From Candidatus Gastranaerophilales bacterium (GTDB lineage Bacteria; Cyanobacteriota; Vampirovibrionia; Gastranaerophilales; Gastranaerophilaceae), in NCBI GenBank assembly GCA_944323255.1, contig CALURU010000004.1:62001-126000 (forward strand): a stretch of DNA of 64,000 nucleotides, written 5' to 3'. The first letter of the stretch is position 1; each line of letters begins with the position of its first letter. Shown piece after piece: positions 6,042 through 61,835 of this stretch. The notes below the pieces were generated by a model that had not been told where the DNA came from, ran no database searches, and saw only the letters and a list, made by a program, of their open reading frames with translations. The position numbers and the translations under genes are program-made.

Positions 6042-6140
6042 TTATTGTTTAGGTTTATAAAACAGTCTAAAGATTATATAAAGACGCTAATTTAGTGTGT
6101 TAAACTATATAGTATAGAGAGGAATTAACAGGAGGGAAAT

Positions 6141-7259: not shown

Positions 7260-7278
7260 TAATTCAAATGTTGCATGA

Positions 7279-7314
7279 TTAAACCCCTCTTCTTAAATAA
7301 GAAGAGGGGTTTAA
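7279..7314. terminator. Bidirectional intrinsic terminator
   Basis: A perfect 17-base stem (TTAAACCCCTCTTCTTA and its complement) with a two-base loop, flanked by A/T-rich sequence on both sides. It lies between the convergent aminotransferase and aspS genes. Confidence 0.9.
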
Positions 7315-35602: not shown

Positions 35603-35678
35603 GGGGGTTTAGCTCAGCTGGTAGAGCACCTGCTTTGCACGCAGGGGGTCAGGAGTTCGAATCTCCTAACCTCCACCA
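35603..35678 (+). tRNA. tRNA-Ala (anticodon TGC)
   Basis: 76 bases with CCA encoded. Acceptor GGGGGTT pairs with AACCTCC; D-arm AGCTCAGCTGGTAGAGC; anticodon arm CCTGCTTTGCACGCAGG with TGC in the loop; T-arm AGGAGTTCGAATCTCCT. All arms are complete. The 3' end of a serine recombinase frame overlaps it on the other strand. Confidence 0.97.
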
Positions 35679-36638
35679 TTTAAAACAAATAGAACTATTA
35701 AAATCAGAGCCTTCGGGCTCTTTTTTAGTATGTTCGAGTCCACTCCCCCATGAAGAAATTATGTTTTGCTTGAATTCAGCCAGTCCAATTTCTGCAATTC
35801 CTTGTTTTGCAAGCTTAATCAGTTTTTCTATCGTTGCAAAGGGTTCACGGAAAATAACTTTAACCTTTTTGTTTTTTACCATTGCTGATAAATAAACTTC
35901 TCTAATGATTTGAGCTACTTCTTCCGCTTTTAGTTCGATGGCTGGTAAGCTTGCCCTATGGCATAAATCAAGGATTTTTAGCCCTGTATCTAAATAATTT
36001 GTATTAGCACTATTATGTTTTTGCAGCTCTGCAGATAATCGGTTTAATTTTACCTCATATTCATTCTTCAAATTAACCCACAAATCGTATTCTAAGACAT
36101 TATTTAACTGGTCAAGGTACATTTTCTTCAAAATCTCTTTGCATTCTTCAATTTCAGAATTTATGCGTGATGTTTCTTCCTTGTGAAATGTTTGCTCATC
36201 ACCCAAACAAATTTGTAAAGAAAGCTTTATTAACTCATATATATCTTCATTCAAGCCAATTCTTTTGAGATGCATTCTAAAAGATTGGGTAAGCTCTTTT
36301 TCTGAAAGATATACCATATTCGGACAGCTTCTGTCATAGTGGGAACATCTGTAATAAATATTATTTTTCTTCTGTCTTTCTCCGCAGAAAGAATATCCGC
36401 AAACCCCGCATTTTAAGATTCCCGGATAGAGAAAATCAAAGTTTTTCCGAACCTTTGATTTATCCACTTTAAGAAAAGCAAGCTGTGCTTTATCAAATAT
36501 TTCACGGTTAATAATTGACGGGTGTTTTCCCTGATATACTACACCATTGCAATTCATCTGACCTACATAAATAACATTTTTCAGCATACATTCAAGCACG
36601 CATTGAGTAATTAATATTATTCTTGTTGAAAAAATCAA
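35649..36638 (-). pseudogene. Large serine recombinase remnant, catalytic domain missing
   Basis: 329 codons. What is left is the C-terminal half of the recombinase domain (IYVGQMNCNGVVYQGKHPSI), a zinc-ribbon (LKCGVCGYSFCGE, YRCSHYDRSC) and a long coiled coil. The N-terminal resolvase domain with its catalytic Ser, about 150-300 residues, is absent; upstream sequence is unrelated. The last residues (WWRLGDSNS) are a reading of the tRNA-Ala T-arm, and KKEPEGSD comes from the tRNA terminator. So the gene integrated next to the tRNA and was then truncated. It cannot be active. Confidence 0.85.
35706..35726 (+). terminator. Terminator of tRNA-Ala
   Basis: AGAGCC-TTCG-GGCTCT followed by a T-run. 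It lies inside the reverse frame of the recombinase remnant. Confidence 0.9.
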
Positions 36639-42240: not shown

Positions 42241-43380
42241 CTAATCTAACTCGTTTGGCATAGCATAAAGCACGGTTTCGGATAATCTCGGAGAATAATG
42301 TCCAAGTCGGAATTTGTAATTCTCAAGATTTTCTTTTAAATATAGCGGGATATTAACAAAATCTTCACTTGAGTGATAAATTGAAATTGCAAGCTGCGGG
42401 CGGCATTTTTTAATTGTACTTATTCCGCCTTTAAGCGCAGAAAGTTCAGCTCCTTCAATATCCATCTTAATAAAATCAGGAAAAATATTTCTTTCTTCAC
42501 AGAACTTGTCCATTGTTATTACATCGACTATTCTTTGTTCCCAATTCGGAGAATTTTCTGGACATCTTTTGCCGGTGATTTCTTCTGCAAAGGAGGCGCC
42601 TAAATGTGTCTTATCAATACAGAATTTAATTTTTTTACAGCAATCGCCCAGAGCAAGAGGTACAATTTCAAGTTTGTCATTGAGAATAAAATCTTCTATG
42701 TAGGATTTTTTTGCATAATCATATATAACTTCAAATCCATAAACTTTTTTCAAATTTTTACACTGTTGTTGACTTGCAATTACATTGAATCCATCATTTA
42801 GACCTAAATCGAAAATTATTTTTACAGCCTCTTTATTTATTTTTTCTAAATAATGTTTTTTAACAACAAAATTAGTTTTGTATTTCTTTGAAACATTGTT
42901 ATAAAAATACTCTGAGATTTCATCCGTATCACAAAGATTTTTTCGTATATTAAAAATCTTATTATATAATGCTTTATCATCAGAATTATCAAACATATTT
43001 ATAATGTTGGTATAAACTTCATCTCCTAATATAGACCAATTATTCCGATAATAATTACTTATAAAAGTTGTTTGAGGTATGACAGGTATATCAAAAATGT
43101 CAAAAACATTCAACATTCGGCACTCGTCTGTTTTAGTAGACATTATAACTAAATCATAATTTTCTTTTAGTTCTACTGCTTGTTTTAATTTCCAAACAGG
43201 AAGATTACAAAATTTTCCCTTAATATTGTTATCAATGAATCCTATAACCTGGGTATTAGGTTTAAATACTAATAAATCATTTTTTATTTTCTCTCCGGTC
43301 GGACAGGCTCCAAAAATAACAATTTTACTGTTTTCCGGTACTTTATTATACAAATCAGCTAATAATTTTTCTTTATACAT
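42241..43380 (-). CDS. FkbM-family methyltransferase with N-terminal Rossmann-like module
   Basis: 379 aa. Residues 15-100 are a nucleotide-binding-like module (KIVIFGACPTGEKIKNDLL, VIGFIDNN). The C-terminal half is a SAM-dependent FkbM methyltransferase (IIFDLGLNDGFNV, FIKMDIEGAELSALKGG). These typically O-methylate sugars. It is the last gene of the leftward glycan operon. The module resembles the C-terminal module of the three glycosyltransferases upstream. AAAGGAG precedes the ATG. Confidence 0.85.
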   Translation of the reverse strand: MYKEKLLADLYNKVPENSKIVIFGACPTGEKIKNDLLVFKPNTQVIGFIDNNIKGKFCNLPVWKLKQAVELKENYDLVIMSTKTDECRMLNVFDIFDIPVIPQTTFISNYYRNNWSILGDEVYTNIINMFDNSDDKALYNKIFNIRKNLCDTDEISEYFYNNVSKKYKTNFVVKKHYLEKINKEAVKIIFDLGLNDGFNVIASQQQCKNLKKVYGFEVIYDYAKKSYIEDFILNDKLEIVPLALGDCCKKIKFCIDKTHLGASFAEEITGKRCPENSPNWEQRIVDVITMDKFCEERNIFPDFIKMDIEGAELSALKGGISTIKKCRPQLAISIYHSSEDFVNIPLYLKENLENYKFRLGHYSPRLSETVLYAMPNELD

Positions 43381-43381
43381 A

Positions 43382-44614
43382 CTACATCTCCTTTAAAATT
43401 GGCTTTATACTTATTTGTTTTTTTACATTCATATTTAAATATTCTTTTATTTCTAATATTCTTTTTTCTGCATAGTGGACTATACTGACTACAACTATAT
43501 CTGGATTAAGTTTCTCTATATCTTCTGGCTGCCAAATTTTGTATTTGCCAAAATGTTTTCCCCACAATTGAGGATTTTTATCAATAATCCCAACAATATT
43601 ATCATCATCCAAATTAAATCTTTGAATAAAGTCTTTAAGAAATTCACTTGCACCCCAAAATACAATTCTGTTTTTTTCTAGTATTTTATTAAGATAACTG
43701 TATGCTATTTCTTTATGATTTATTATGCATTCATATTCTTGCCAATCATCTAAAGCCTTTAATTGTCTCATAAATTCGGTATAAAGACTCCCATAAATAT
43801 TTTTATATATACATTTCATCTTCAACCAAGATGTAAATTGTTTTTTGTAACTTTTGTCCAGAATGCTATATAAATTATGCTTTATGAGATAATTCTTTAA
43901 TTCTAAATATTGTTTTAATCCATTTGCAGGATTACTATTTGAAGTTATACTTCCAGGACGCAAACATCTGTAATTTATAAATGCTTTGTTCAAAATAACA
44001 ATTTTAGAAGCGCATATTCTTGCAATATATCCTAATGCGGCTCCGTTACTGGATGTCAAATCCGGGAAACGTAGTCCGTTTTTATCTAATAACTCTTTTT
44101 TATATAGAACTTGCCAAGATTCTGGCGAAAACATGTTGAATATCTTATCCGGACAATCTTTCCAATTGAAGGGTGTATTAAATATAGCAAGATTTTTATT
44201 AACAGGGACTATGTCATTTTCTTCAATAAAAGTTCCATCGGGAGCTCTTCTGACAGCTGTACATACAACCATATCTGTATCATATTTAACGGCTGTATCA
44301 TACATTTCTTTGAGCATTTCCGGTTCAATGAAATCATCCGAATCAAGAAATTGAATGTATTTACTTTTGGCGAGGCTTAAAGCTAAATTTCTTGCTGCTC
44401 CTACTCCTTTGTGTTCCTGTCTGATTACAGAGAAGCGTTTATCCTTTTTTTGATATTCCTGAAGAATTTCAAAAGATTTATCATCAGAGCCGTCATCAAC
44501 ACAAATTACTTTAAAATCTTGAAACGTCTGTGCAATAATACTATCCAGACATTCTCTAAGATAATTTTCTACATTATATACAGGTATTAAAATACTTATT
44601 TTTGTGTCCTTCAT
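43382..44614 (-). CDS. GT2 glycosyltransferase with C-terminal Rossmann-like module
   Basis: 410 aa. N-terminal GT-A domain: SILIPVYNVENYLRECLDSI, VDDGSDDKSFEIL and the metal-binding FLDSDDFIEPEML. A helical middle follows, then a C-terminal module (RIVFWGASEFLKDFI, VGIIDKNP, LNPDIVVVSI). It transfers a nucleotide-activated sugar to a surface polysaccharide. AAGGAA precedes the ATG; the next gene starts two bases after its stop. Confidence 0.9.
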   Translation of the reverse strand: MKDTKISILIPVYNVENYLRECLDSIIAQTFQDFKVICVDDGSDDKSFEILQEYQKKDKRFSVIRQEHKGVGAARNLALSLAKSKYIQFLDSDDFIEPEMLKEMYDTAVKYDTDMVVCTAVRRAPDGTFIEENDIVPVNKNLAIFNTPFNWKDCPDKIFNMFSPESWQVLYKKELLDKNGLRFPDLTSSNGAALGYIARICASKIVILNKAFINYRCLRPGSITSNSNPANGLKQYLELKNYLIKHNLYSILDKSYKKQFTSWLKMKCIYKNIYGSLYTEFMRQLKALDDWQEYECIINHKEIAYSYLNKILEKNRIVFWGASEFLKDFIQRFNLDDDNIVGIIDKNPQLWGKHFGKYKIWQPEDIEKLNPDIVVVSIVHYAEKRILEIKEYLNMNVKKQISIKPILKEM

Positions 44615-44622
44615 TTGATTCC

Positions 44623-46830
44623 TTATATGGTTTTTATACTAATATCATGCAGTTTATGGAATTTAATATATTCCCGCACCTCCTGTGCTCTTTCTCTTGC
44701 AGAATTAACTATTGTTATAATTATCTCGTCCGGCTTGAGTGTAATTAAATCTTCCGGCGTAAAGATTTCATACTGTCCCAGAAATTTCCCCGTTTTTGCT
44801 GGATTTTTATCTATAATTCCGATAACATTTGTATTCAAAATATTATATTTTTTGATAAATTCTTCAAGAAAAAGACTTGCCCCCCAAAACACAATTTTCT
44901 TGTCATTTTGTATCTGTAAATAAAGATTAGTAAATTTTGCCCCTTCTATGATTGTGTCTAGTGCAATTTCTTTATTTCTTATATATAAAATGTCTTCGTA
45001 AAAAGCCGTTTTTCTGGCGTATTCCCAAAATAAATCGTAATACAGCTCTAGTTCTAAATTCCATGGCTTTCTAGGAGAAATATAATGTATAATACCCGGA
45101 TTTTTAAGAGAAGATGTTATATCCGATAAATAATCGTCTTTTAAATAGCTTACAAAATTTTTATTCCATATAAAAATCCCGCAGCAAAAATTCCATTTTG
45201 AAGATATCAGCTTAACCTTATTTTCAAATATGATATTTAAAATATCTTGATCCGGATAGAGCAGTTTTTCTTGTTTAAACGCTTGTTCGATTGAGTATTT
45301 GTACCCTCTCTTATCAATTGCCGGAATATTGAACATAATCATACCGGAATTAAAATAATCTGTTTCTTCTTTTATTCCCAGACAATTTTTAATATGTTCA
45401 TAACGTTCTTTAAATTCTTTAATATACAAAATCTGTGCTGTAGCATCTTTGACGGCAAGAATTTGATTGTTTTCAAAATCTATATTAAAAAGCTCTGTTA
45501 AAGGCTGGTTGATTATAATATCTGTATCGAGATAAAGCACTTTTTTATATAAAGGCATTAAAAGCGGAATAAAAATTCTGTTATAAATTTCTATAGACCA
45601 GTTATTTATACTTTTTAATTTTATTTCAGGGAAATTAGTTGAAATAAAATCTGATATATCGAAAAACCTGAGGCTAAAATTATCAGGCAGCATATTAAAA
45701 AGATGCTTACGATTATTTTCTGTAATGTCAGAATTAAAAACGATAATATCAAATTTCTCGCCGTGAGAATTTTCAATAAGAGATTTTAAAAGTACCGCAA
45801 AATACTTGCAATATTTATTATCAAAAGAAAATACTATCGAATAATAATCTCCTTCAAAAACCGGCTGGATTGTAAACTCTTCAACTATTTCCCAACTCTG
45901 TTTTATCGGAAAGGTATTTGCAAGAATAGTCTTAAGTTTCCTTCTATCCTCATCATGCGTATCTTCGGTATCATTTATACATAAAATCTTCGGAGCAAAC
46001 TTTTTTATTACATCTTCAATATAATATTTTGATTCTAATTTTAAATACAAATTATCAAGATTACTGTAAAATTCCTGCTCAGCTATCGGCGGATTAAGCT
46101 TAAGTATCCCTTGATTTTTTTCTATCATAAAAAGACTAAAGATGATTCTTTGAATAGTATTCGAGCATCTGAATTTCTGGTGTATTAATTTGTCAAATTC
46201 TTCTTGAAATAATTTTTTACAAGCTTTAAAAGAACTTTTTCTATAAGCATCAATACAATGCGACGGCTCAAACTTATTTACCGCTTTTTGTCTGTCGAAA
46301 GTTTTATCAAATAAATCCTGAGTGTACAAAATTCTTTGAGTATACAAATTGTTCGGTTCTGTCCATTTACGGGTCCGAAGGTTCACAATCGGCTTATTTT
46401 CTTCATCATAAAAATATTCCGGTTCAACAGGCGAAGCAAAAAACATATCGTCATTTGCGTAGAGAAAATATTCCGATAAATCCGGAATATTATCAATACA
46501 GACTTCTATTGATGCGCTGTTAAAGCAAGGCAGACAATTTTCCGGCATGATGTCTTTATGGTTTACTATTTTTATTTTGGGATGATTTGTATCAAGCCAT
46601 TTAGGAGTCTGATCGTCCGTTACTATAAAAATTTTATTAATCCACGGTGCGTACATTTCGGCAGAGCGGAGGGAATATTTAAGCTCATCATTATTTGAAT
46701 AACGACAGTCGCTATTTTCTTCTGAACTTACAACTCCGAGCTCATTCGCCCAGAATCTTCGTTTCTTTTGCCAATCTTCATCTTTATCGTTTACCCAGAG
46801 ATAAACCAAATCAATTTTTATATCCTTCAA
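44623..46830 (-). CDS. Stealth-GT8-Rossmann three-domain glycan enzyme
   Basis: 735 aa. Residues 1-310 carry the Stealth conserved regions of capsule hexose-1-phosphotransferases (IDLVYLWVNDKDEDW, RYSNNDELKYSLRSAEMYAP, YANDDMFF). Residues about 325-610 are a GT8 domain with VLYLDTDIIIN (DxD), YFNSGMIMFN and YPDQDILN. The end repeats the module of the neighbours (KIVFWGASLFLEEFI, IGIIDKNP). Two catalytic units in one chain suggest a phosphodiester-linked repeat unit. It starts with TTG at 46,830, overlapping the upstream stop, after GAGGAG. Confidence 0.85.
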   Translation of the reverse strand: MKDIKIDLVYLWVNDKDEDWQKKRRFWANELGVVSSEENSDCRYSNNDELKYSLRSAEMYAPWINKIFIVTDDQTPKWLDTNHPKIKIVNHKDIMPENCLPCFNSASIEVCIDNIPDLSEYFLYANDDMFFASPVEPEYFYDEENKPIVNLRTRKWTEPNNLYTQRILYTQDLFDKTFDRQKAVNKFEPSHCIDAYRKSSFKACKKLFQEEFDKLIHQKFRCSNTIQRIIFSLFMIEKNQGILKLNPPIAEQEFYSNLDNLYLKLESKYYIEDVIKKFAPKILCINDTEDTHDEDRRKLKTILANTFPIKQSWEIVEEFTIQPVFEGDYYSIVFSFDNKYCKYFAVLLKSLIENSHGEKFDIIVFNSDITENNRKHLFNMLPDNFSLRFFDISDFISTNFPEIKLKSINNWSIEIYNRIFIPLLMPLYKKVLYLDTDIIINQPLTELFNIDFENNQILAVKDATAQILYIKEFKERYEHIKNCLGIKEETDYFNSGMIMFNIPAIDKRGYKYSIEQAFKQEKLLYPDQDILNIIFENKVKLISSKWNFCCGIFIWNKNFVSYLKDDYLSDITSSLKNPGIIHYISPRKPWNLELELYYDLFWEYARKTAFYEDILYIRNKEIALDTIIEGAKFTNLYLQIQNDKKIVFWGASLFLEEFIKKYNILNTNVIGIIDKNPAKTGKFLGQYEIFTPEDLITLKPDEIIITIVNSARERAQEVREYIKFHKLHDISIKTI

Positions 46831-48074
46831 AATTTTAACTCCTCTTCAAATATGTTCGGCAAAAGCTCCACATTCGGATACTTTTCTCTGAACTCCTTTT
46901 TTAATGATTCATAAATAGATTCGTTATTGGATAGAACTGTCAAAATCACTCCGTCCGGTTTTAGCTCGTTTATCGCATCAGGTGGGTAAATTGTATATCG
47001 GCAGAAAGGTTTGCCAGCCGAGGCTGCGTTTCTGTCAATAATCCCTAAAATATTAGGGTTCTTTTCTGTTTCCCTTTCCAGCACCTGCTTGATAAACAGA
47101 CTCCCGCCCCAGAGCATAACTTTTTTGTTCCCAATAAATTTCTTGAGATATTCGGGTGTGATGTAATCTTTCCTTAAAGCAGATTGATATTTTTGCCAAT
47201 CTTCTGGCATGAGAGCCTTAAATTCTTCCAAAAACTTTTTATACTCATTATCGTTACAATAACTAATTTCCGCTCTTATGTGGTTAATGAAAACTTTTCT
47301 GTATGCATTTTCATACTCAGGTAGAAATCCTCTTGATTTAAGAAAATCCCCTAAATACATACAGGATTTAACGGCATCAATTGTATGCTTAGAGCGTGTG
47401 CTCACTAAACTCCCCGGACGGTTAAACCTGTAATTGACTAGTTCTTTATTAAATGCAACAATCTTATTTGCACAAATAACTAAACTGTGCATAAAAGCAA
47501 TATCTTCATAAATCGTAAGCGGAGGAAATTCAAGATTATTCTCTCTAAGAAACGATTTTCTGATTAATTTATTCCAAACAACAGGGGTAAACAGAGAAAA
47601 TATATCGTCTTTAAAATCTTCTCGGTTAAAAACTTTTTCCATCGGAACTTTATCAATGTTTATAGGGAAATTCGGACTTCCTGTCTCTGTTATATTACCC
47701 TTATCATCAATTTTTCTTGATGAACAAACCGTTAAATCAGTGTCAAATTTTTCTGCGTAGTTGTACATCTTTTCCAGCAATGACGGCTCAAAATAATCGT
47801 CCGAGTCAAGAAATTGAATATATTTACCCTCCGCAAGTCTTATTCCGTTATTTCTTGCACTTCCCGCACCTGAATGCCTTTGCTGCAAAATTACAAACCT
47901 GTCGTCTTTTTTCTTATACTCCTGCAAAATCTCCAGAGACTTATCAGTTGATCCGTCATCCACACAAATTATCTCAAAATCCTGAAAAGTTTGGTTCAAG
48001 ATACTATCCAAACACTCCCTCAGGTATTTTTCTACATTAAAGACCGGAATAACTATACTGATTTTTACGTCCAC
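46827..48074 (-). CDS. GT2 glycosyltransferase with C-terminal Rossmann-like module
   Basis: 415 aa. GT-A motifs IVIPVFNVEKYLRECLDSI, VDDGSTDKSLEIL and FLDSDDYFEPSLL, then a helical region and the C-terminal module KVMLWGGSLFIKQVL, LGIIDRNAA, LKPDGVILTVLSN. It is clearly a paralog of the GT2 at 43,382. First gene of the four-gene glycan operon (GT2, Stealth-GT8, GT2, FkbM). Confidence 0.9.
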   Translation of the reverse strand: MDVKISIVIPVFNVEKYLRECLDSILNQTFQDFEIICVDDGSTDKSLEILQEYKKKDDRFVILQQRHSGAGSARNNGIRLAEGKYIQFLDSDDYFEPSLLEKMYNYAEKFDTDLTVCSSRKIDDKGNITETGSPNFPINIDKVPMEKVFNREDFKDDIFSLFTPVVWNKLIRKSFLRENNLEFPPLTIYEDIAFMHSLVICANKIVAFNKELVNYRFNRPGSLVSTRSKHTIDAVKSCMYLGDFLKSRGFLPEYENAYRKVFINHIRAEISYCNDNEYKKFLEEFKALMPEDWQKYQSALRKDYITPEYLKKFIGNKKVMLWGGSLFIKQVLERETEKNPNILGIIDRNAASAGKPFCRYTIYPPDAINELKPDGVILTVLSNNESIYESLKKEFREKYPNVELLPNIFEEELKF

Positions 48075-48224
48075 CGCTAATTCCTTATCAAGAACATATT
48101 ATGACTAGATTTTACCATATTAAATATAGAAATACAATATTTAATATAGATATTTCGTTAAAAAAATGTTTTAAATACGGTTTATAAGTTTTACTACTCC
48201 GTTTATTCTCATGGGGAGGTACTT

Positions 48225-48542
48225 ATGGACTTAAAAAAAGATTTCGGACTAAGACTAAAGGAACTAAGAAATAAAAAAGGTATTACACAATATCAACTTG
48301 CTGAGATGGTTGGCATTGACCCTAAACACATGAGTCATATTGAAACAGGAAGAAGTTTTCCAAAAGCTGATTTAATAGAGAAATTTGCTGAAGCATTGGA
48401 TGTTGATTATACAAAACTATTTAAGACAGAACATTTGCAAGACAGAGCCAGTTTATACAATAAAATAACTAATCTGATGAATCAAGCTACAGATGAAGAA
48501 TTAAGAATAATCTATAAAATTGTTGTAGGCTGTTTAGATTAA
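48225..48542 (+). CDS. Xre-family helix-turn-helix regulator
   Basis: 105 aa. A Cro/CI-type HTH occupies residues 8-62 (LRLKELRNKKGITQYQLAEM, IDPKHMSHIETGRSFPKADL). The C-terminal 40 residues may dimerise. GGGGAGG lies before the ATG. It is divergent from the glycan operon with a 150-base gap and could control it or a neighbouring element. Confidence 0.92.
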   Translation: MDLKKDFGLRLKELRNKKGITQYQLAEMVGIDPKHMSHIETGRSFPKADLIEKFAEALDVDYTKLFKTEHLQDRASLYNKITNLMNQATDEELRIIYKIVVGCLD

Positions 48543-49102
48543 AATTTCAAACTTAAACCGGAATTGGGTTTTAAAAATGGTATGCCGGAATTTGCGGAGA
48601 ATAACAATCTATAATCCCTTATAACAAATAGCATGCGTTGGAGAGTTATTTTATCAAAATAAGTTTTCATAAGAGCTGCTTCGGACTCTTGTCTTTCATT
48701 AACCGATTGTTTAGCTCTATAGACTGTTACGGATTTATTTTCTTCAATTGCCCGAACTAAAATAGCCCTAACATAGTATCGGTTAAAATCAGAGAAGGCA
48801 AGCATTTCACGAATATTTGAAGGAATTTTCTTACCATTTTTGTCCTTGTCTTTGAAAAAGTTCGGAATAAGATTCCTCATCAAACTGTCTACATCTCCCC
48901 TTTCAAAAGCATTTCTAAGTATTCTTTTATAAGCACATACAAAATCCGGCTTTATTGATTTAGGAATATAAAACAAACCTTTAACAGGTGGAGTAGTTTT
49001 CCTGTTGAGCTCACTAGCTTCATTTGCCTTATTTAAATCTCGCTCTAATTCAGCAATCATAATTAAGCGTGTTGTGTTATCAAGGTTTGGGAAATAGTAC
49101 AT
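48539..49102 (-). CDS. Unknown protein
   Basis: 187 aa from the ATG five bases after AAAGGAG; the frame extends to 49,144 without a start signal. Helical and basic, with KSIKPDFVCAYKRILRNAFERG and a pattern of Tyr/Arg. No recognised family. It converges with the Xre gene, overlapping by four bases. Confidence 0.6.
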   Translation of the reverse strand: MYYFPNLDNTTRLIMIAELERDLNKANEASELNRKTTPPVKGLFYIPKSIKPDFVCAYKRILRNAFERGDVDSLMRNLIPNFFKDKDKNGKKIPSNIREMLAFSDFNRYYVRAILVRAIEENKSVTVYRAKQSVNERQESEAALMKTYFDKITLQRMLFVIRDYRLLFSANSGIPFLKPNSGLSLKF

Positions 49103-49307
49103 AAAAACTCCTTTTGTAAAATAATTTAAGGAATTCAGGTACAAAAAAAGAAATAAGCTAGCCCTTGGTGCAAAGGAGTTCTAATCCTTTCCCAATTCTT
49201 ATTTGAGAATCACGCTTTCACTCTTTATGAGTTGGGTATAACATTATAATATATTACAAGATTTGGGATTAACAATAAAGTTTTATATTAACAAAACTAT
49301 AATAATT

Positions 49308-50213
49308 ATGTATAATTATTTGGGGAGTATATTTAAATTGAAATTTTTTATAAAAGTAAAACAATCTGCGATTTCAGTTATATCTAAATTATTAGATAGT
49401 TTGGGGTGGATAAAAATAATATTTCAATCTGGTGCAACTATCTTTGGTATGCTTGCCGCATGTGATTTGACAAAATTTTTAAATAATTCCCACCCCGCAA
49501 CGATATTTGTGCATTGGTTACTTTTTTCACATCCATTAAGAATATGTCTTTTACTGCAAGTAATTCTATTACTTATTGCGATCTTAGAAAAAGCTCAAAT
49601 AGGCTCTTATTCAAAATTGCGAAAAGAACTAGATAATACTCAGAAGAAATTAGATATTTTAAATAATTGTATAAAAGAACTTTTTGAAGGAATTTTAATG
49701 TCTTTTGCAATTGCGGAACTAGGCTTTGGAAATAATCAAGAAAACGGAGAAAGAATTTCTCTGTATATAGCAAAGCAGGACTCAAATTCAAGCGTATCTT
49801 ATTTATATCCAATAGGAAGATACTCTAGTAATCCAATCTATCGACAAATTCGAAGAAAAAAATATAGTGTTCATAAAGGATGTATCGGAGAAGCTTATCG
49901 TAACGATTATTGTTATAATGGATATGTTACAGAAACTGTTTGTACGAATCTTTATTCATACTCCCCAGCTGAATTTCAAGAAATGAGGATGAAATCTCGC
50001 ACTCTGGCTGCTATCTCATTAACGGATCGACAAAATCATGTAATAGGAGTTTTAGTTGCAGAATCAAAAGAACAAGATTGGCAAAAAAACTCAATTAAGA
50101 AAAAACTAGAAAAACAAGCACAATATTTAACGGACATGTATTTAACTTTAAAAAATTATATTGATGATAAAGTTGATAATACTATTTCAGAAAATGGAGG
50201 AATGCCATGGTAG
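49308..50213 (+). CDS. Two-helix membrane protein with GAF-like domain
   Basis: 301 aa from the ATG at 49,308. Two membrane segments (about 38-60 and 75-95) are followed by a short coiled coil and a GAF-like domain (about 130-270) with CIGEAYRNDYCYNGY, RMKSRTLAAISLTDRQNHVIGVLV. GAF domains bind small molecules. The start is uncertain: TTG at 49,263, this ATG (TATAAT ends four bases before it) or TTG at 49,338 after GGGGAG. The next gene overlaps its end by seven bases, so the pair acts as one unit. Confidence 0.7.
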   Translation: MYNYLGSIFKLKFFIKVKQSAISVISKLLDSLGWIKIIFQSGATIFGMLAACDLTKFLNNSHPATIFVHWLLFSHPLRICLLLQVILLLIAILEKAQIGSYSKLRKELDNTQKKLDILNNCIKELFEGILMSFAIAELGFGNNQENGERISLYIAKQDSNSSVSYLYPIGRYSSNPIYRQIRRKKYSVHKGCIGEAYRNDYCYNGYVTETVCTNLYSYSPAEFQEMRMKSRTLAAISLTDRQNHVIGVLVAESKEQDWQKNSIKKKLEKQAQYLTDMYLTLKNYIDDKVDNTISENGGMPW

Positions 50214-50698
50214 AATTGATTGACATTATTTCCTATATTTTAAAAAATTATCCATATAAAGGGGAACTTTCTAATGCACGTTTAACTAAAATGATTTATC
50301 TTATTGACTGGCGTTCAGCTTTTGATTATGGAGAACAGGTTACTTCTATTAATTGGTATTTTGACAATTATGGACCATTTGTACATGATATAGAGGATGT
50401 AATTTCTCATAATCCAGATATCATAGAACAAATTACAACTAGAACTATATATGGCAGTAAAAAAAATCTTTTCATTCTCAGAAATGAAAAGATGCAGATA
50501 AATTTATTACCTGAGAATGTTACATCAACGATTGACCTAATCATAGAAAAAACAAAGGGTTTATATTGGCAACAATTTATAAATTTTGTTTATTCTACAT
50601 ATCCAATAATTACATCTGAAAGATATACACATCTTAATCTGGTAGAAAAAGCAGAAAACTATAGGAAAGAACTATCTTTTGAAAATGCGCTAACATAA
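50207..50698 (+). CDS. Panacea/SocA-like (DUF4065) protein, likely antitoxin
   Basis: 163 aa. The family core is visible: RLTKMIYLIDWRSAFDYGEQV, WYFDNYGPFVHDI, then a C-terminal helical part. Panacea-domain proteins act as antitoxins for many unrelated toxin partners, or as adaptors such as SocA. GGAGGAATGCC overlaps the end of the upstream gene, giving coupled translation. Its partner would be the membrane-GAF protein; this is inference. Confidence 0.82.
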   Translation: MVELIDIISYILKNYPYKGELSNARLTKMIYLIDWRSAFDYGEQVTSINWYFDNYGPFVHDIEDVISHNPDIIEQITTRTIYGSKKNLFILRNEKMQINLLPENVTSTIDLIIEKTKGLYWQQFINFVYSTYPIITSERYTHLNLVEKAENYRKELSFENALT

Positions 50699-50910
50699 AA
50701 GGAATACTCTATTGAGAAATATTTTTGAATAAGTATAGAAAAATTTTTGTATGTTTTAAAATTAGGACAAAATGAGTTTTATTTAGTGCATTTTTACAAT
50801 CCTGACTTTTGTAATACGTTTTTGATTTTATAAGAAAATTATGCCCAATGCATAGGCTTAGTTACAAATTTGTTCTACTAAGTTGAAAAAATTACTATAT
50901 TCTATTTTGA

Positions 50911-50916
50911 TATAAT
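50911..50916 (+). promoter_or_regulatory. Extended -10 six bases before ATG (leaderless)
   Basis: TGA-TATAAT, then AGGTCT and the ATG at 50,923. Confidence 0.55.
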
Positions 50917-50922
50917 AGGTCT

Positions 50923-51678
50923 ATGGGATATTGTCATTACTGTAAACAGGATAAGAAATTAATAAAAGCACATATAATTCCACGTAATTTTTATTTAGAC
51001 TACGTAAATGAACATTTTGTTCTTGTTAATGCAGATACGGGTAAAATAACCCAAAAACAATCTGGCTCTTATGATAAAGATATTTTATGTGCTGATTGTG
51101 ATGGTAAAATCTTAAAGAAATTTGATGATGAGGGTTACAGAATTTTATTAGGTGATATTACCAAATATTTAATTAATAGAAGCGGTACAAATTCTATATA
51201 TTATTTAGAAAAAGAAGAATTTAATTATGAGTATATAAGAAAGTTTTTTATTTCAATAATATGGAGGGCATCTATTTCAAAGCTAGATGAATATTTATAT
51301 ATTGATCTCGGTCCTTATGAAGAAAAAGCTTTAGAAATTTTAAAAGATGAAAAAACATACAGTAATTTATTTAAAGTTTTAATTTTTAAAGCTCCCAGTA
51401 ATCGTGATTACAATAAATTAGTTTATATTGCAAAAGCAAAATGGGGAAACTGCACAACATATGTAATAAGTATGGCAGGATATTTTATAAATGTTATAGT
51501 TAATATTAAAAAACTTAATCCTAATTTATGTAAATTATATAAAAATCTATTTTTAAACGAAGATAAGTTATGTATTATAGAGTCTGAACAGGTATACCTC
51601 AGCCAAATAAATGGAATAACAAATAAAATGTCTAAGATGTGGGAAAAAGGTTTTAGACCACCGAAATTAAAATATTAA
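50923..51678 (+). CDS. HNH-like zinc-binding protein, possible nuclease
   Basis: 251 aa. The N-terminus CHYCKQDKKLIKAHIIPRNF and the later CADCDGKIL give two CxxC pairs with an AHIIP motif, the layout of HNH-like endonuclease families. The following 180 residues are Tyr/Lys-rich and unassigned. It is monocistronic and lies among defence-type genes, so an anti-phage role is plausible. Catalytic residues cannot be confirmed by eye. Confidence 0.65.
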   Translation: MGYCHYCKQDKKLIKAHIIPRNFYLDYVNEHFVLVNADTGKITQKQSGSYDKDILCADCDGKILKKFDDEGYRILLGDITKYLINRSGTNSIYYLEKEEFNYEYIRKFFISIIWRASISKLDEYLYIDLGPYEEKALEILKDEKTYSNLFKVLIFKAPSNRDYNKLVYIAKAKWGNCTTYVISMAGYFINVIVNIKKLNPNLCKLYKNLFLNEDKLCIIESEQVYLSQINGITNKMSKMWEKGFRPPKLKY

Positions 51679-51830: not shown

Positions 51831-52982
51831 ATGCGTTATGATGTTGAAATATCCACAAATATACTAGATTGGGTACTCTCTATTCTAAATCCAAGCGAAA
51901 CAAATCCTCAAGTCTTTGAAATTTTAATCGCTTGGCAAAAAGGAGAAAAGACCCCGACATATAATAAGGTACTTGAAATTAGTCGAGCTACTGGCATTCC
52001 GCTTGGATATTTTTTCCTAAAAAAACCACCCAAGGAAGATATATCTTTGGTTAACTACCGTACTATAAAAAGTATTGAGTTAAAACAGCCAAGTAGAGCA
52101 TTGCAAACAACAATTCTTGATATGGAACTTATACAAGATTGGCTAAATAAACAATTAACAAAAGATGGCTATGATAAAAATGATTATGTTAAATCTCTAA
52201 ATGTAGATACTGATATTATCACATTAAGTCAAATCGTTCGTAAGAAGTTAAGTATTAAAATTGATTGGTTTATAAGTTGTAAAAATGCCGAAGATTCTTT
52301 TAAATTCTTGCGAAAAGCAATTAGCGATAGTGGTGTTATAGTTATGACTAATGGTATTGTTAGAAATAATACTAGCAAACCTCTTTCAATTGATGAATTT
52401 AGAGCTTTTGCATTAATTGATGACTATGCACCATTAATCTTTATTAATACTAATGATTCTATCAATGGAAGATTATTCTCTTTATTACATGAATATATTC
52501 ATATAGGATTGGGAGAAAACAGTCTTTATAATGATAGATGTAGTTGTCATCATGAGATAAATATTACAGAACAAATCTGTAATGCAGTTGCTGCAGAAAT
52601 TCTTGTTCCACAAACAATATTCCATAATCAATGGAATATTTTAAATATTGATGAAGATATAGTAAAAACTATAAATAAATTGGCTCATTACTTTAAATGT
52701 GGTGTAGTTGTAGTTGCAAGAAAAGCTCTGGAAAATCATTATATAAGTAAAAAGCAGTATTCTTTAATTGCGAATAATGCGGTTCAAAACTTTAAAAAGA
52801 AAAAATCAAAAGGTGGGGAATTTTATCGTTCTCTTAACTCCAAAATTGATACTAATTTTTTGAATTATTTGATTAGAAGTGTAGAAAAAGGAAATACTCT
52901 ATATACGGAAGCTTTTCGTTTGACCAATACAAACAGTAAAACCTTTAATACCTTAAGAACACATCTTGAAGGAGGTTTTTAA
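51831..52982 (+). CDS. Xre-like ImmA/IrrE metallopeptidase
   Basis: 383 aa. A divergent HTH-like N-terminus (LIAWQKGEKTPTYNKVLEIS, ATGIPLGYFFLKKPP) leads to an ImmA/IrrE peptidase with the zinc motif LLHEYIHIGLG and a downstream Glu in NAVAAEILVPQ. Such proteins are typical partners of DUF4411 toxins. TGT-TATAAT lies 17 bases before the ATG and AAAGG between. The stop overlaps the next ATG by one base. Confidence 0.88.
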   Translation: MRYDVEISTNILDWVLSILNPSETNPQVFEILIAWQKGEKTPTYNKVLEISRATGIPLGYFFLKKPPKEDISLVNYRTIKSIELKQPSRALQTTILDMELIQDWLNKQLTKDGYDKNDYVKSLNVDTDIITLSQIVRKKLSIKIDWFISCKNAEDSFKFLRKAISDSGVIVMTNGIVRNNTSKPLSIDEFRAFALIDDYAPLIFINTNDSINGRLFSLLHEYIHIGLGENSLYNDRCSCHHEINITEQICNAVAAEILVPQTIFHNQWNILNIDEDIVKTINKLAHYFKCGVVVVARKALENHYISKKQYSLIANNAVQNFKKKKSKGGEFYRSLNSKIDTNFLNYLIRSVEKGNTLYTEAFRLTNTNSKTFNTLRTHLEGGF

Positions 52983-53497
52983 TGTCAGATGAAAAATTCC
53001 TAATAGATACTAACTCTTTTATTGAACCTTATAATAAATATTATTCATTTGATTTAGCAGCAAATTTCTGGAAACAACTAAAATATCATATTGAGATAGG
53101 AAACATTGCATTACTAGATGTGGTAAAAGATGAAATAAGCAAAGGCAAAGATGAATTATCACAGTGGTTAAATGACATAGATATATTAGAAGAAATAGAC
53201 CATAGGACTCCTGACATCATTTCAAATTATAGTAGAGTACTACAAGAAATACAAGATAATCCAAATTATAAAGAAACTGCTTTAGCGAATTGGGCACAAG
53301 AAACCGTTGCGGATGCGTGGTTAATTGCAACTGCGTTAACTAATAATTATACAATTATTACATTTGAAAGAGGACAGCGTATTCCCAATAGAAAAGATGT
53401 ATTTAAGAATGCTAAAATACCTGACGTTGCAGAAGATTTAGGGGTAAAGGTTGCGGATTTATACTACTTAATGCGGACATTAGGAATAAAACTATAA
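52982..53497 (+). CDS. DUF4411 PIN-like toxin candidate
   Basis: 171 aa. The PIN-type acidic residues appear in FLIDTNSFIEPYN, VVKDEISKG, ADAWLIATAL and TIITFERG. DUF4411 proteins pair with ImmA/IrrE or Xre antitoxins and are predicted ribonucleases. It overlaps the upstream gene as TAATG with GGAGG in front. Confidence 0.88.
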   Translation: MSDEKFLIDTNSFIEPYNKYYSFDLAANFWKQLKYHIEIGNIALLDVVKDEISKGKDELSQWLNDIDILEEIDHRTPDIISNYSRVLQEIQDNPNYKETALANWAQETVADAWLIATALTNNYTIITFERGQRIPNRKDVFKNAKIPDVAEDLGVKVADLYYLMRTLGIKL

Positions 53498-55634: not shown

Positions 55635-56858
55635 CTATTCCCTTTCAGTTTCTCCGGCTTGCTTTAAGGCTGCAAATTTAGCCTCCATAGTCGGATTATT
55701 TTTCGTAAGCCGTTTTATGCTTAAATCCTCAGCCTTGTTATTTGCAAGCCGCAAATTGTTTTCTGAAGAAAGTAAAGCCTCTTTTGTTTTCTGCAAATGA
55801 TCGATTGTTTTATCAATTTCTTCGATTGCCGTTTTAAACTTCTTGCTTGCAAGCTCATAATTTCTTGCAAATTTTTCTTTAAAGTCATTCATTTCCGCTT
55901 CAAAATTTGATATATCAATATTTTGTGACTTAATTACCGCAAGTTCTTTTCTGTATTCGAGCGAATTTAAAGCGGCATTTCTTAACAGAGTTATAATAGG
56001 AATAAAAAATTGCGGTCTTACTACATACATTTTGGGATAATGATGAGACATATCAACAATTCCCGTATTATATAACTCATTTTCCGGCTCCAGCAAAGAA
56101 ACAAGAACCGCATATTCACAATTTTTCTCTTTTCTGTCTTTATCCAATTCTTTTAAAAAATCTGTATTTTTCTTTTTTGTAGAAGTTGTGTCCATTTCGT
56201 TTTTCATCTCAAACATTATTGAGATAAATTCACCGCCTTCTTCATCTGTATCTCTGTATATATAATCCCCTTTGCTTCCGCTTCTTGCATCATTATCTTT
56301 TTCAAAATAAGCCCGCTGGAATCCTGTTGCTCGAAGCCGGTTAAATTCTATTTCACAGTGCTGTTCAAGGCTTTCTCCTATCATTTTTGTTGACATTCTG
56401 GATTTAAAATTTTTAAGCCGTGTGATTTCATCATCCTTAAATCTCAAAGCGCTTTCATAACGATCTTTCAATGATTGTTCCTTTAGTTGGAATTCTTTTT
56501 CGGAAAGTTCTTTTTCACCGTTCAATTTTGTAATACAATTTTCTTTTTCAGAAAGCTCGGCATTCATTTTATTTACAATTTTATTAATCTCTAATTCTTT
56601 ATCTTTATCAAACGCTGACAAGCGGTTTTTCAGCTCCGCAATTTCTTTATCTTTTTGATTTAACCATTCGTTATACTGTTTTTCGGATTCAAGCTTCACA
56701 AGCTGAATAGCATTCTCTTTGTCAGATTCAAACTGAAGTTCACGGCTCTGAATTTCTTTTGAAAACTCTTTATCTCTCACCTGCTTGACAATTGCAGCAT
56801 ACCCTGATTCGTCAACCTGAAAAATTTCACCGCATTTGGGACATTTAATTTCCTGCAT
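55635..56858 (-). CDS. DUF2130 protein with PD-(D/E)xK nuclease-like core
   Basis: 407 aa from the ATG after AAGGAG; an upstream frame to 56,930 lacks a site. It has an N-terminal zinc-ribbon ([17 protein letters not shown]), a long coiled coil (about 30-170), a DUF2130 core with [19 protein letters not shown] (D...ExK) and a coiled C-terminus. Family members are related to RmuC-like nucleases. It follows res with an 86-base gap on the same strand. Confidence 0.85.
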
Positions 56859-56944
56859 TATCTTACTCCTTAATCTCGAATAAAAATCATCCCTGTAGAT
56901 ACAGTATAACAGTTTATTTACCTGCGTCAACAGTACAAAAAATA

Positions 56945-59935
56945 TTAATTTTTTGTAGTATTTTGAATAAAAGTTTCAAAATTTGTAATCGTTTCAAATT
57001 GAACACCTGTATCAAGAGCCGCAAAATGTTTTTTACCGCAAAATATTTTATCCTTCTCATTTTGTCTCAAATCATCATCAAGAGAAACGTACAAATTTTC
57101 TTTTTTTGTCTCAACGACAAAATACAATTTGTGTTCTCCTCTCACCTCTACCAGAATAGCCCAATCCGGATTATAAGGTCCGAGAGGAGTCGGGACTTTA
57201 AACGCAGACGGCAGTTTAACATATTTTAGAATATTTTTGTTATTCTCAAATTTTTGAGCGAAATTCGCTTCGTTATCAGAATCATAGACAAGATGAGTAA
57301 ACGGATATTTGTTGCTGTTAACTTCCAGCATATTACGTTCAAGATATCCCGTAAGCGGATTTTCCCTCAAAAGTTCCTGCGTATAAAAATAATCATCACC
57401 GAGCTTTGTATACTTAATTCCCGCAAGAATCAAATCTCTCATAACCCGCAGAATAATTACCGCAGCTTCTGACATATATTTTTGTGGATTTTTTCTAAAA
57501 ATATGCAATGTCCTGCTCTTTATCAAAATATCTGCAATTGTTTTTCGTGTAAGATTCGTTTTGTTTTGCAAAAATGTAATTATATCCGGATAATATGATA
57601 CATCATTAATTATTCCGCTGATTGTATCATCTACAATTGTTGAGCAATCAATTCCCGCATCAGTAATTTTAAGCCTTGCCGTTTTTGTTACGATTATGGC
57701 AGAATCGCATTCCATCCTGGAATTTATAGCCTTAGAGCACTCCTCTATCAGCTTTGGTGTATCAAATTCTATCGAATATCTCGTTTTGTATTTAATATTA
57801 TTCCACAACTCAATAAATTCCGGATCCAGAAAAACTTCATTTTTTAATTTCACAACCCGTTTTTTAGAGTTATCTTTAATATTAAGATTTCCTGAATGTC
57901 TTTTTACGATTAATTGTATTTGATCTTTCAAGAACAAATATTCTGCCGGTAAATCCAAATTATCTTCCCTTAAATCTAATTTCAAAGCCTGCTGCACCTT
58001 TCCCGCAGAATCAATATACCCCTTATTAACAAAGTAATCGAATATTTGCTTTGAATGAAATTCTCCCAGATATCCAGTAGAACCGTCTGAATGTTTTACA
58101 GGAATATTTGCAAAAGAATGAAATTCCAGAGTTCCAAATTTTATATCGTGGTTGTTCTCTTCAATTTCGTGCTGAAGATTTTTTGCAAAATCCTCATAAC
58201 TTTCATTTGCAATAACAGTAAGAGTATTGATATCAAACCCCTTGACTCTTTCCCCCCTCTGGTTAACACAAAGCCGCAGCCCTCTGCCTATCTTCTGACG
58301 CCTGTCAACCTCCTGTCTGTTTTCCGCAAGTGTACATATCTGAAACACATTCGGATTATCCCAGCCGACACCTAGCGCAGAGTGTGAAAAAATAAACCTC
58401 AACTTGTTATCCAATTTGAGCAATTCTTCTTTATCTTTCATAATCAGATTATAAGTACTCTCTTCTGCCTTTGCTCCGGATTTTTCCGTTAATTCCGAAT
58501 ACGGAGTCACAACTTTTTTATCTATAGAAAAATAACCGTTGTGAACCTCCTCAGCCGGCGTGTCAACTATAAAATCTCTGTACTGTCGCTGTGAAACTAA
58601 TGATTTATATTCCTCTTCAAAAATTCGGGCATATTCGCCTTTTTGCGGTTTACCATTTTCATCATAATAACGGTATTTTTCAACCCTGTCTACAAAAAAC
58701 AAACTCAAAACTTTTATTCCCAAATTTCTTTTTGCAAACATTTTTTCCTTATCCAAATGCTCCTGAATAGTTTTTCTTATCTGCTGTCTTTTTAAATCCG
58801 TATCATCAATATCTCCGACAGCCTGCCCTTCCGCAATTTCTACCCCGTTTAGAAACTCAATATATCTTTCGTCTCCCAAACAGTAAATATCCTTCACTCT
58901 GTATTCCGAATATATTTCTCTGCCGCCGGATAAAGTGTATAAACTGTTTTTCCTATATTTATCAGCCTCTACAACTTTTCTGGTAATTTTTCCCCGGCTG
59001 TCTAATGCGCTAATTTCCAGTTTTGCTTTTATGCTGCCCTTGCTCGATTTTATTGAAAGAAGTTTAATGTATGCAGTGTTATCGTAATCTCTGGCAGAAA
59101 ATGAAGCAACTTCTATTTGCTTTACATATTCACCCTCGTAAGCATCAATAGCATCAAAACTATAGATTAAGTTGCTTTTTCTGTTATGAGTCGCACTGTA
59201 TCTGAAGCTTATAAGCGGGTTTAAGAGCTTAATAGATTTTTGGGAATTTAGAGTATTATCTACAAGCTGTGGTTCATCAATAATCAAAATCGGTCTTGCA
59301 GCGCTGATTAAATCCACGAGCTTGCCCGTCTCTCTTTCCTCCTGATGAATAATATTTTTATCTTTATTAAAAGCTGCAATAGTAATCACCATAATAGAAA
59401 GATTTCTGTTCCCCGAAAAATCACGTACAAGTTCCGGTCTTGAACTGTCATAAACAAAATAGCTGGATTCGCTGTATGGTATCTCCGGATAATCTTTTTT
59501 AAACTGTTCAAATGTAATATCCAAAGACTTTTTTACTCCCTCTTTTATTGCGACCGATGGAACAACAATTATGAACTTGGAAAAACCGTACTTTTTCTTT
59601 AACTCAAAAATAGTTTTAAGATATACGTAAGTTTTACCCGTTCCGGTTTCCATATTTATGTCAAATTCCGGATACTCATTGCTCATCTCGGAAGTCTGCG
59701 CAAGTCCGTTATGCAATTGAACCTCGTGCATATTATCCATCAGCTCTTCTATCGTCAAATCGAGACTGTTGGAGACAACTCCGGAATATTCCGTCAGATT
59801 TTCCCTAATTCCGGGCTGATAAAAGGAATTTCCGGCAGAAAATGCCGTTAGACAGCTCTGCTGACCTTCAAATAATTTTAGTACCGAATTTATTGCTTTT
59901 TTTTGATAATCTAATTCTTCAAACTTAAATTTCAC
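56945..59935 (-). CDS. Type III restriction enzyme, Res subunit
   Basis: 996 aa. An SF2 helicase core with [20 protein letters not shown] (Walker A), ILIIDEPQ (Walker B, DEPQ), SATHNRKS and a late [16 protein letters not shown] (motif VI). The C-terminal nuclease part has [10 protein letters not shown]...VVETK (D-ExK). It needs the Mod subunit to recognise and cut unmethylated DNA. It starts with GTG after GGAGG, 17 bases after mod. Confidence 0.95.
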
Positions 59936-59951
59936 AAAAACCTCCGGTTGT

Positions 59952-61835
59952 TTAAACCGTTACAAATTTATCAATACCAAAACTTTTCAGAGTTTCTTTG
60001 ACATTAGTTTTTACACTGTCATCAGCAAACCCGTTATCTTTAAAAACAACCGCAATCCGCCCTTTGTTTTCGGATTCCGTACATAATTTTACAATATCTG
60101 CCGCAGTCTCAAATGTAATATCGTTATCCAGACATACAATTATCTCACAGTCTCCTGCCAAAAAGACTTTTCTTCCATTCAGATTCATCTCTGTTACTGG
60201 AATCGTAAGCGGAAGTCCGTTTTTTAGAATTATCTCATACAAAGCATCTTCCTCACTCCGCCCTTCTACAAAATTATCAATCTGCTCCAGCAAACTCTGC
60301 TCAAGATTCTTAGTATCAAGACTCCACTTCTTTATATTAGAAGAATCTAATTTAAAAACCCTAAACCCGATATCCGGCGTCGTTTCCGGGTTTGCTCCCA
60401 AAATTCTGTCTCCCGCACGTCTGATTCTCTCTTTTCCTATTTCAGACAACAAAGGCGGCTTTTTAAGTCCACATAAGAAATCAAAAGCGGTCTTATCTTC
60501 TTTGGATTCAGGATTTAAAACCTCCGGAAGCTGTATTAGAATATAGCGGCAATTTGTATTATTTTCCAGATTAAACTGCATGCAAGCATGCGCAGTAGTC
60601 GCAGAACCGGAAAAGAAATCCAGTATAATATCATCATTATCCGCTGCCAATTCTATTATTCTTTTTATGAACCCTACAGGTTTCGGATTGTCAAACACAA
60701 TATTTCCGTCAAATAAATTTTTCACCTGCTGCGTTCCGTTTGTTGTTGTTTCCACATCATCCCATAAAGTCTTAGTGACTCTTCCTCTTTCTTCCGCCTC
60801 ATAAATAAATCTTTTTCTCTGCGGTCCTCCTTCTCCCCCGATACCAAAAACAATCCTGTCATCCGCCAGAAGTTCCTGAAACTTTTCATAATCGTTCTTC
60901 CAGCTGCAATTTGGATTCGGTCTGTAAACAACACCCGTTTTCGGATTTATAATCTCATACTGCTGGTTAGGTCGCCAGCCGCCAACCTGAAAAGGATCAG
61001 CTTTCCAAGGACCTCTCGGATCATTGTCCGGATTCGCAAAACCTGAACCGTCCTCTCTAAGACGAAATTCCTCCCTGTGTTTTATATAATATTTAGCATC
61101 TTTAAAATACACAAGAGTATGAGTATGCGATACAGAAATCAGAGCCGTATTGGTAACCGATTTTGTCGAATTCCAAATAATATCCGCAGCAAAGTTTGTT
61201 TCTCCAAAAATTTCATTACATATCTTTTTTAAATTATCCAACTCCGTATCAGATATAGAAATAAAAATCACACCATTCTCTTTTAAAAGATTTCTTGCCA
61301 GCATAAGCCTCGGATACATCATATTCAGCCAGTTTGTATGAAACCTTCCGTCAGATTCCTTGTTTGTGGAAGTCGCATTACCCTCACCATCAATCTGACC
61401 CGTTATCCTTTTATAGTTTTTTATATTATCTTTAAAATCATCTTTATAAACAAAATCATTCCCGGTATTGTATGGCGGATCAATGTAAATCAGTTTTATC
61501 TTATTCAGATAAGAATTTTGAAGCAGCTTTAAAACCTCCAGATTATCTCCCTCAATATAGATATTATTTGTCGAATCCCAATTGCGGCTCTCTTCCCTGC
61601 ATGGTCTTAAAGTCCCGCAGGATGGCGATTGAGCCAGCCTTAATGAATTGAGCTTTCCCTTCCAGGTAAAACGGTATTTCTCTTCACCGTCATCCGTATA
61701 ATTTCCGAGAATATTCTGCAATTTATTAAAATCAATCTTGTCCTCCGTAAATACTTCCGGAAAAATCTGCCGCAGCTGATTTATATTGTACTCAACAACA
61801 TCCATACTGTCTGCTCTCATCTGAACTTCTTGCAC
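59952..61835 (-). CDS. Type III DNA methyltransferase, Mod subunit
   Basis: 627 aa. The catalytic IYIDPPYNTGNDF motif comes first and DFFSGSATTAHACMQ later, the beta-group order. The middle is the target recognition domain. It methylates adenine in an asymmetric site and guides Res. It starts with GTG after AAAGGAG. No repeat tract for phase variation was seen in the gene. Confidence 0.95.
   Translation of the reverse strand: MQEVQMRADSMDVVEYNINQLRQIFPEVFTEDKIDFNKLQNILGNYTDDGEEKYRFTWKGKLNSLRLAQSPSCGTLRPCREESRNWDSTNNIYIEGDNLEVLKLLQNSYLNKIKLIYIDPPYNTGNDFVYKDDFKDNIKNYKRITGQIDGEGNATSTNKESDGRFHTNWLNMMYPRLMLARNLLKENGVIFISISDTELDNLKKICNEIFGETNFAADIIWNSTKSVTNTALISVSHTHTLVYFKDAKYYIKHREEFRLREDGSGFANPDNDPRGPWKADPFQVGGWRPNQQYEIINPKTGVVYRPNPNCSWKNDYEKFQELLADDRIVFGIGGEGGPQRKRFIYEAEERGRVTKTLWDDVETTTNGTQQVKNLFDGNIVFDNPKPVGFIKRIIELAADNDDIILDFFSGSATTAHACMQFNLENNTNCRYILIQLPEVLNPESKEDKTAFDFLCGLKKPPLLSEIGKERIRRAGDRILGANPETTPDIGFRVFKLDSSNIKKWSLDTKNLEQSLLEQIDNFVEGRSEEDALYEIILKNGLPLTIPVTEMNLNGRKVFLAGDCEIIVCLDNDITFETAADIVKLCTESENKGRIAVVFKDNGFADDSVKTNVKETLKSFGIDKFVTV

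Follow-up and report, generated by a model that had tools for sequence, protein, structure and literature searches.

The closest described system to the locus studied here is toxFtsL of Gelidibacter mesophilus (NetFlax node D9), a toxin of 281 amino acids that combines a GAF domain with a membrane-located FtsL-like helix and was published in PNAS in 2023 (PMC10440598). It is neutralized by a stand-alone Panacea protein (PanA), and both toxicity and rescue were shown in Escherichia coli, where toxFtsL blocks colony formation, causes filamentation, and delocalizes FtsZ; growth stops after a delay and the culture then collapses, and partial membrane depolarization was excluded by the authors as the cause (PMC10440598). 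The published claim to FtsL is one of partial homology (PMC10440598). In Caulobacter, the Panacea-domain antitoxin SocA works as an adaptor for proteolysis, delivering SocB to ClpXP (PMC8832971). Linkage to a Panacea gene is no guarantee of toxicity, since eight Panacea-linked candidates studied in 2022 and ten NetFlax systems from the 2023 work (PMC10440598) were not toxic in E. coli.

Gene layout and neighborhood of the pair

In the window, the whole stretch of 64,000 nucleotides that was analyzed, which comes from a gut bacterium of the Gastranaerophilales, two open reading frames on the forward strand (49263-50213 and 50207-50698) share 7 bp (50207-50213), and the same 7-bp overlap is found in the nearest relative, L040. 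The features of the pair are as follows.

49288-49316, forward strand: probable promoter of the pair, TTAACA-17-TATAAT, matching 11 of 12 consensus positions (consensus match only)
49338-50213, forward strand: putative toxin of 291 amino acids, with two membrane segments, a long helix, and a GAF-fold C-terminal domain (start inferred; AlphaFold2 model, hydropathy, and purifying selection)
50196-50200, forward strand: GGAGG, ribosome-binding site of the Panacea gene, within the toxin gene and six bases 5' of the Panacea ATG (read from the sequence)
50207-50698, forward strand: putative antitoxin of 163 amino acids, a stand-alone Panacea protein (SocA_Panacea, PF13274; Pfam match and confident model)

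The promoter site, which scored best in a scan of 48100-51000, lies 3' of TTG 49263, the start of the longest toxin frame (316 amino acids), and overlaps ATG 49308. GGGGAG at 49322-49327 stands ahead of TTG 49338, and the L040 relative of the toxin, which has 290 amino acids, begins at the position matching TTG 49338, with its –10 element and gene start placed much as in the window. Because the promoter-like site, the GGGGAG, and the L040 start all fit, the toxin probably starts at TTG 49338 (291 amino acids) rather than at TTG 49263. Comparison with L040, the closest relative, gave dN/dS values of about 0.24 for the toxin and about 0.08 for Panacea, with synonymous change near saturation, indicating purifying selection on both genes that acts more strongly on the Panacea gene.

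The pair is flanked by an ImmA/IrrE and DUF4411/PIN pair and by a type III restriction-modification system. In the former (51831-53497), the ImmA/IrrE-type peptidase gene overlaps the DUF4411/PIN gene by one base in a toxin-antitoxin-like arrangement; the latter occupies 55635-61835 on the reverse strand, with mod at 59952-61835 and res at 56945-59935, then a DUF2130 gene. Elsewhere in the window, a tRNA-Ala gene and the remnant of a serine recombinase lie side by side on opposite strands (35603-36638), a possible integration site; a second copy of the tRNA-Ala end, which would mark an island boundary, was not found in the window or in the genome. Four successive genes at 42241-48074, mostly glycosyltransferase-like, seem to share a GIIDKNP-type stretch close to one of their ends, perhaps a repeated accessory domain.

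Domain structure of the two proteins

The second protein matches the Panacea family PF13274 with an E value of 2.1e-12 and 48.4 bits, above the curated cut-off of 25.7, and its structure model has a mean pLDDT of 96.6. The first protein has two hydrophobic segments with hydropathy peaks of 1.46 and 2.32. Its AlphaFold2 model (mean pLDDT 83.5, mostly >90 in the GAF region) has GAF domains as its top structure matches (best VIA Z 15.5, rmsd 2.8, 140 residues aligned), and the C-terminal domain adopts, in this model, a GAF fold. These results agree with the first-pass annotation, which had described two genes overlapping by seven bases with a coupled ribosome site, the second of the Panacea/SocA type and the first with two membrane helices and a GAF-like domain, lying among defense-like genes.

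Profile searches recognize the first protein poorly. Its score against Pfam GAF (PF01590) falls below the cut-off (E value of 0.02, 15.8 bits versus 22.4); across 19 family members, only 2 reach an E value of 0.1 or better, the best being 0.02, and none passes the cut-off, nor does any of the 19 match the Pfam FtsL family at 0.1 or better. No model naming the membrane-GAF partner was found in Pfam, NCBIfam, or PADLOC, and one annotated record calls it a "hypothetical protein"; in PADLOC, the window toxin is unmatched and the Panacea protein is matched only weakly (E values of 0.005 and 0.012). Searches of solved structures by sequence gave no meaningful match to either protein of the pair. By structure, the best solved match that VIA gives to the Panacea model is 7yk3_D, from the DarTG toxin-antitoxin complex of M. 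tuberculosis (Z 9.2 with 125 residues aligned; next match, Z 6.8), and Foldseek alone gave no significant match with this model. Panacea and the antitoxin DarG may be related in fold, a possibility worth checking.

Seven residues of the first protein (R139, R161, R173, G181, M218, E242, and S243 in the 291-residue numbering) are conserved in 27 to 31 of 31 sequences. All seven lie in the GAF part, the membrane part drifting, which suggests that the functional core, whether it serves sensing, partner binding, or both, is the GAF domain. One lysine-rich stretch precedes the first membrane segment and another follows the second, which suggests that both ends of the protein are cytoplasmic and within reach of Panacea. 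Ligand control through the GAF domain is speculation.

When the membrane-GAF model was compared with predicted viral structures, several unnamed phage proteins and T4-type holins were among the matches. The holins stand among the lower matches (the T holin of Serratia phage PS2, target TM 0.61, and Proteus phage holins), and together with the delayed growth stop and later culture collapse published for toxFtsL (PMC10440598) they bring in a holin-like membrane protein with its inhibitor, in which the GAF-fold domain would govern the assembly of a lethal membrane lesion and Panacea would be antiholin-like. Similarity to GAF-like folds is common, however, and ordinary GAF domains head the list of matches. 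The T holin has one membrane segment and a periplasmic domain, whereas the hairpin of the membrane-GAF family should keep the GAF domain in the cytoplasm, and we regard a holin-like function as quite unlikely.

Pairing across genomes

The Panacea protein and its relatives were searched in genomes, proviruses, and plasmids, yielding 38 distinct loci of one subfamily, in which Panacea scores are at least 177 bits apart from broken copies (fragments in L069), whereas other Panacea loci score <60 bits. A membrane-GAF gene lies directly upstream in 37 of the 38, mostly overlapping or a few bases away, and the single exception is a locus of Planctomycetaceae (L062); among the other Panacea loci, 0 of 33 have such a gene upstream. 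The count is not circular, because loci were picked by Panacea similarity, whether or not the partner was there. Scans that began with the toxin retrieved 16 viral loci; each was an already known pair, and no lone toxin was among them. Genome, plasmid, and phage collections yielded no hit in single-sequence searches with the first protein, its relatives being reached via Panacea; three Panacea queries gave zero matches in INPHARED phages, and two member loci, searched as DNA against E. coli genomes, had no match.

The two proteins also diverge together. A Mantel comparison of their distance matrices over 31 pairs gave an r of 0.715, against a permutation maximum of 0.24 (0 of 5000), and with the toxin divided, the correlation with Panacea was 0.72 for the membrane part and 0.71 for the GAF part, so that the parts are not separated. 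The two genes form an obligate pair, faithful to one partner, across phyla; the possibility raised beforehand that they might not be linked in other genomes did not materialize. Panacea is known for partner swapping, and the present subfamily does the opposite: in bacteria and in an archaeon alike, it stays with a single membrane-GAF partner.

In L041, L062, L066, L068, and L099, the toxin is damaged or missing beside an intact Panacea gene; both genes are damaged in L069, and none of the collected loci combines an intact toxin with damage to Panacea. Toxin-only damage fits a toxin role, with the reservation that Panacea-led sampling favors such loci and that some of the damage may be assembly error. 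The L041 locus (5874-7300) carries a frameshift that splits the toxin between its membrane part and its GAF part and leaves Panacea intact.

A non-toxic, ligand-responsive signaling pair is a rival reading: the GAF domain would sense a small molecule, and Panacea would serve as an adaptor, for example, in proteolysis as SocA does for SocB. GAF domains commonly bind small ligands, and the seven conserved residues lie in the GAF part and not in the drifting membrane part. The patchy mobile distribution (proviruses, plasmid), the strict pairing, and the fact that the counterpart of like architecture is a validated toxin favor toxin-antitoxin instead, and a signaling pair seems improbable to us.

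The toxin-antitoxin reading is well supported because of obligate linkage, co-divergence, and a published, validated pair of the same architecture; counted against it are the rarity of the pair in its own family, the absence of a GAF match over the Pfam cut-off, and the absence of a Pfam FtsL match. We consider it likely that the two genes are a type II toxin-antitoxin pair of the toxFtsL(D9):PanA kind. The first-pass annotation had proposed a toxin-antitoxin pair of a new design whose first gene belonged to no toxin class that could be named. The pair itself is upheld by linkage, co-divergence, and the published counterpart; the novelty of the design has to be given up, since toxFtsL, NetFlax D9, is already a membrane-GAF toxin with a stand-alone Panacea partner and provides the class that was missing (PMC10440598).

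Proviral loci and their repressor neighbors

In its own bacterial family, the pair is present in 3 of 288 genomes, from two genera. Hosts of the pair, as named in the records, include Alphaproteobacteria, Legionella, Dehalococcoidia, Sulfurovum, Flavobacterium, Bacillota, Arthrobacter, and the archaeon Methanocalculus, and the pair is also carried on one conjugative plasmid of Vibrio harveyi. Two samples of the family of the Flavobacterium relative (397 and 349 genomes) returned nothing beyond the known locus and some weak, generic matches. Predicted proviruses hold 22 of the loci. In L098, L102, and L058, the pair and a tRNA gene for Ser or Pro are no more than about 0.7 kb apart.

A phage repressor lies just upstream on the same strand in 8 of the 22 proviral loci (L072, L092, L095, L096, L097, L101, L103, and L104, the last counted through near identity to L103), or in 7 of 21 without one near-duplicate; the count covers proviral loci, several of which are related, and hence is not one of independent events. 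The repressors belong to two families, Phage_CI_repr with Phage_CI_C or S24 peptidase-like (S24/LexA-type), mostly with a helix-turn-helix match, and the gaps between repressor and pair range from –4 to 205 bp. This placement of the pair, directly downstream of a CI/LexA-like repressor in proviral loci, seems to be new. In the window, no repressor adjoins the pair; a small helix-turn-helix gene lies about 700 bp upstream, with a convergent gene in between.

Genes just downstream of a prophage repressor on its strand are normally expressed in the lysogen, lambda rexAB being the classic example. The 8 of 22 proviral pairs directly downstream of a repressor suggest a possible role in excluding superinfecting phages: like rexAB, the pair would be expressed from the prophage, with the membrane-GAF protein as an abortive-infection effector and Panacea as the phage sensor. 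Phage defense of this kind is the toxin-antitoxin pair with a specific function added. Besides the CI-type or S24/LexA-type repressors, the Vibrio conjugative plasmid and the defense genes that surround the window pair argue for it. On the other hand, the window lacks the repressor linkage, the related loci are not independent events, and a prophage location may also come from simple cargo or addiction. Weighing these points, we hold superinfection exclusion to be a serious candidate, with chances somewhat below even.

Proposed mechanism

For a toxin-antitoxin pair of the toxFtsL(D9):PanA kind, we infer the toxicity, neutralization, topology, dimerization, trigger, and target as follows. The N-terminal hairpin of the first protein would insert in the inner membrane and continue as a long helix, which probably dimerizes, leaving the GAF-fold domain in the cytoplasm. 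Panacea, made from the overlapping gene, would bind the membrane-GAF protein directly and hold it inactive. Disturbance of the complex, most likely by a phage or other invader that either Panacea or the GAF domain senses, would free the membrane protein, which would stop growth, probably by acting on cell division and the envelope in the manner of its published counterpart, so that the cell would be sacrificed or stalled.

A more specific and doubtful version would make the pair a widespread exclusion module encoded by the lysogen, in which a membrane-anchored GAF effector is co-expressed with the prophage repressor, restrained by its dedicated Panacea subfamily, and freed by infecting phages. 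It would then kill or arrest the cell via the envelope or the divisome, and its GAF domain would serve as a further, small-molecule check.

Comparison with known systems

Beyond the published kind, the present analysis adds three points: the family is broad, it is faithful to one partner, and it recurs beside prophage repressors. The pair is a good system for studying how a membrane toxin is recognized by Panacea, which signal the GAF domain detects, and whether proviruses use such a module against other phages.

Likened by architecture and partner alone, the pair probably belongs to the toxFtsL(D9):PanA kind. In both systems, a single protein of about 280 to 290 amino acids (291 here) contains a membrane segment, a long helix, and a GAF domain, and both have a stand-alone Panacea partner in the adjacent gene; they differ in phylum, in the membrane hairpin present here, and in FtsL similarity, which Pfam does not find here. 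The PanT of Burkholderia prophage phi52237 could be a further relative, as its reported adenylate/guanylate cyclase similarity may mean a GAF domain. Other PanAT systems (PMC8832971) share the Panacea antitoxin and the adjacent unrelated toxin gene, and several of their toxins act on membranes; however, the validated membrane toxins among them are mostly small, with no GAF domain reported, and the Panacea proteins described here form a separate subfamily, faithful to one partner. SocAB of Caulobacter has the Panacea-domain antitoxin in common with the pair but does not include a membrane-GAF protein. With lambda rexAB, the pair shares an arrangement of two genes beside a prophage repressor, one of them encoding a membrane protein, a likeness of position that holds in some of the proviruses.
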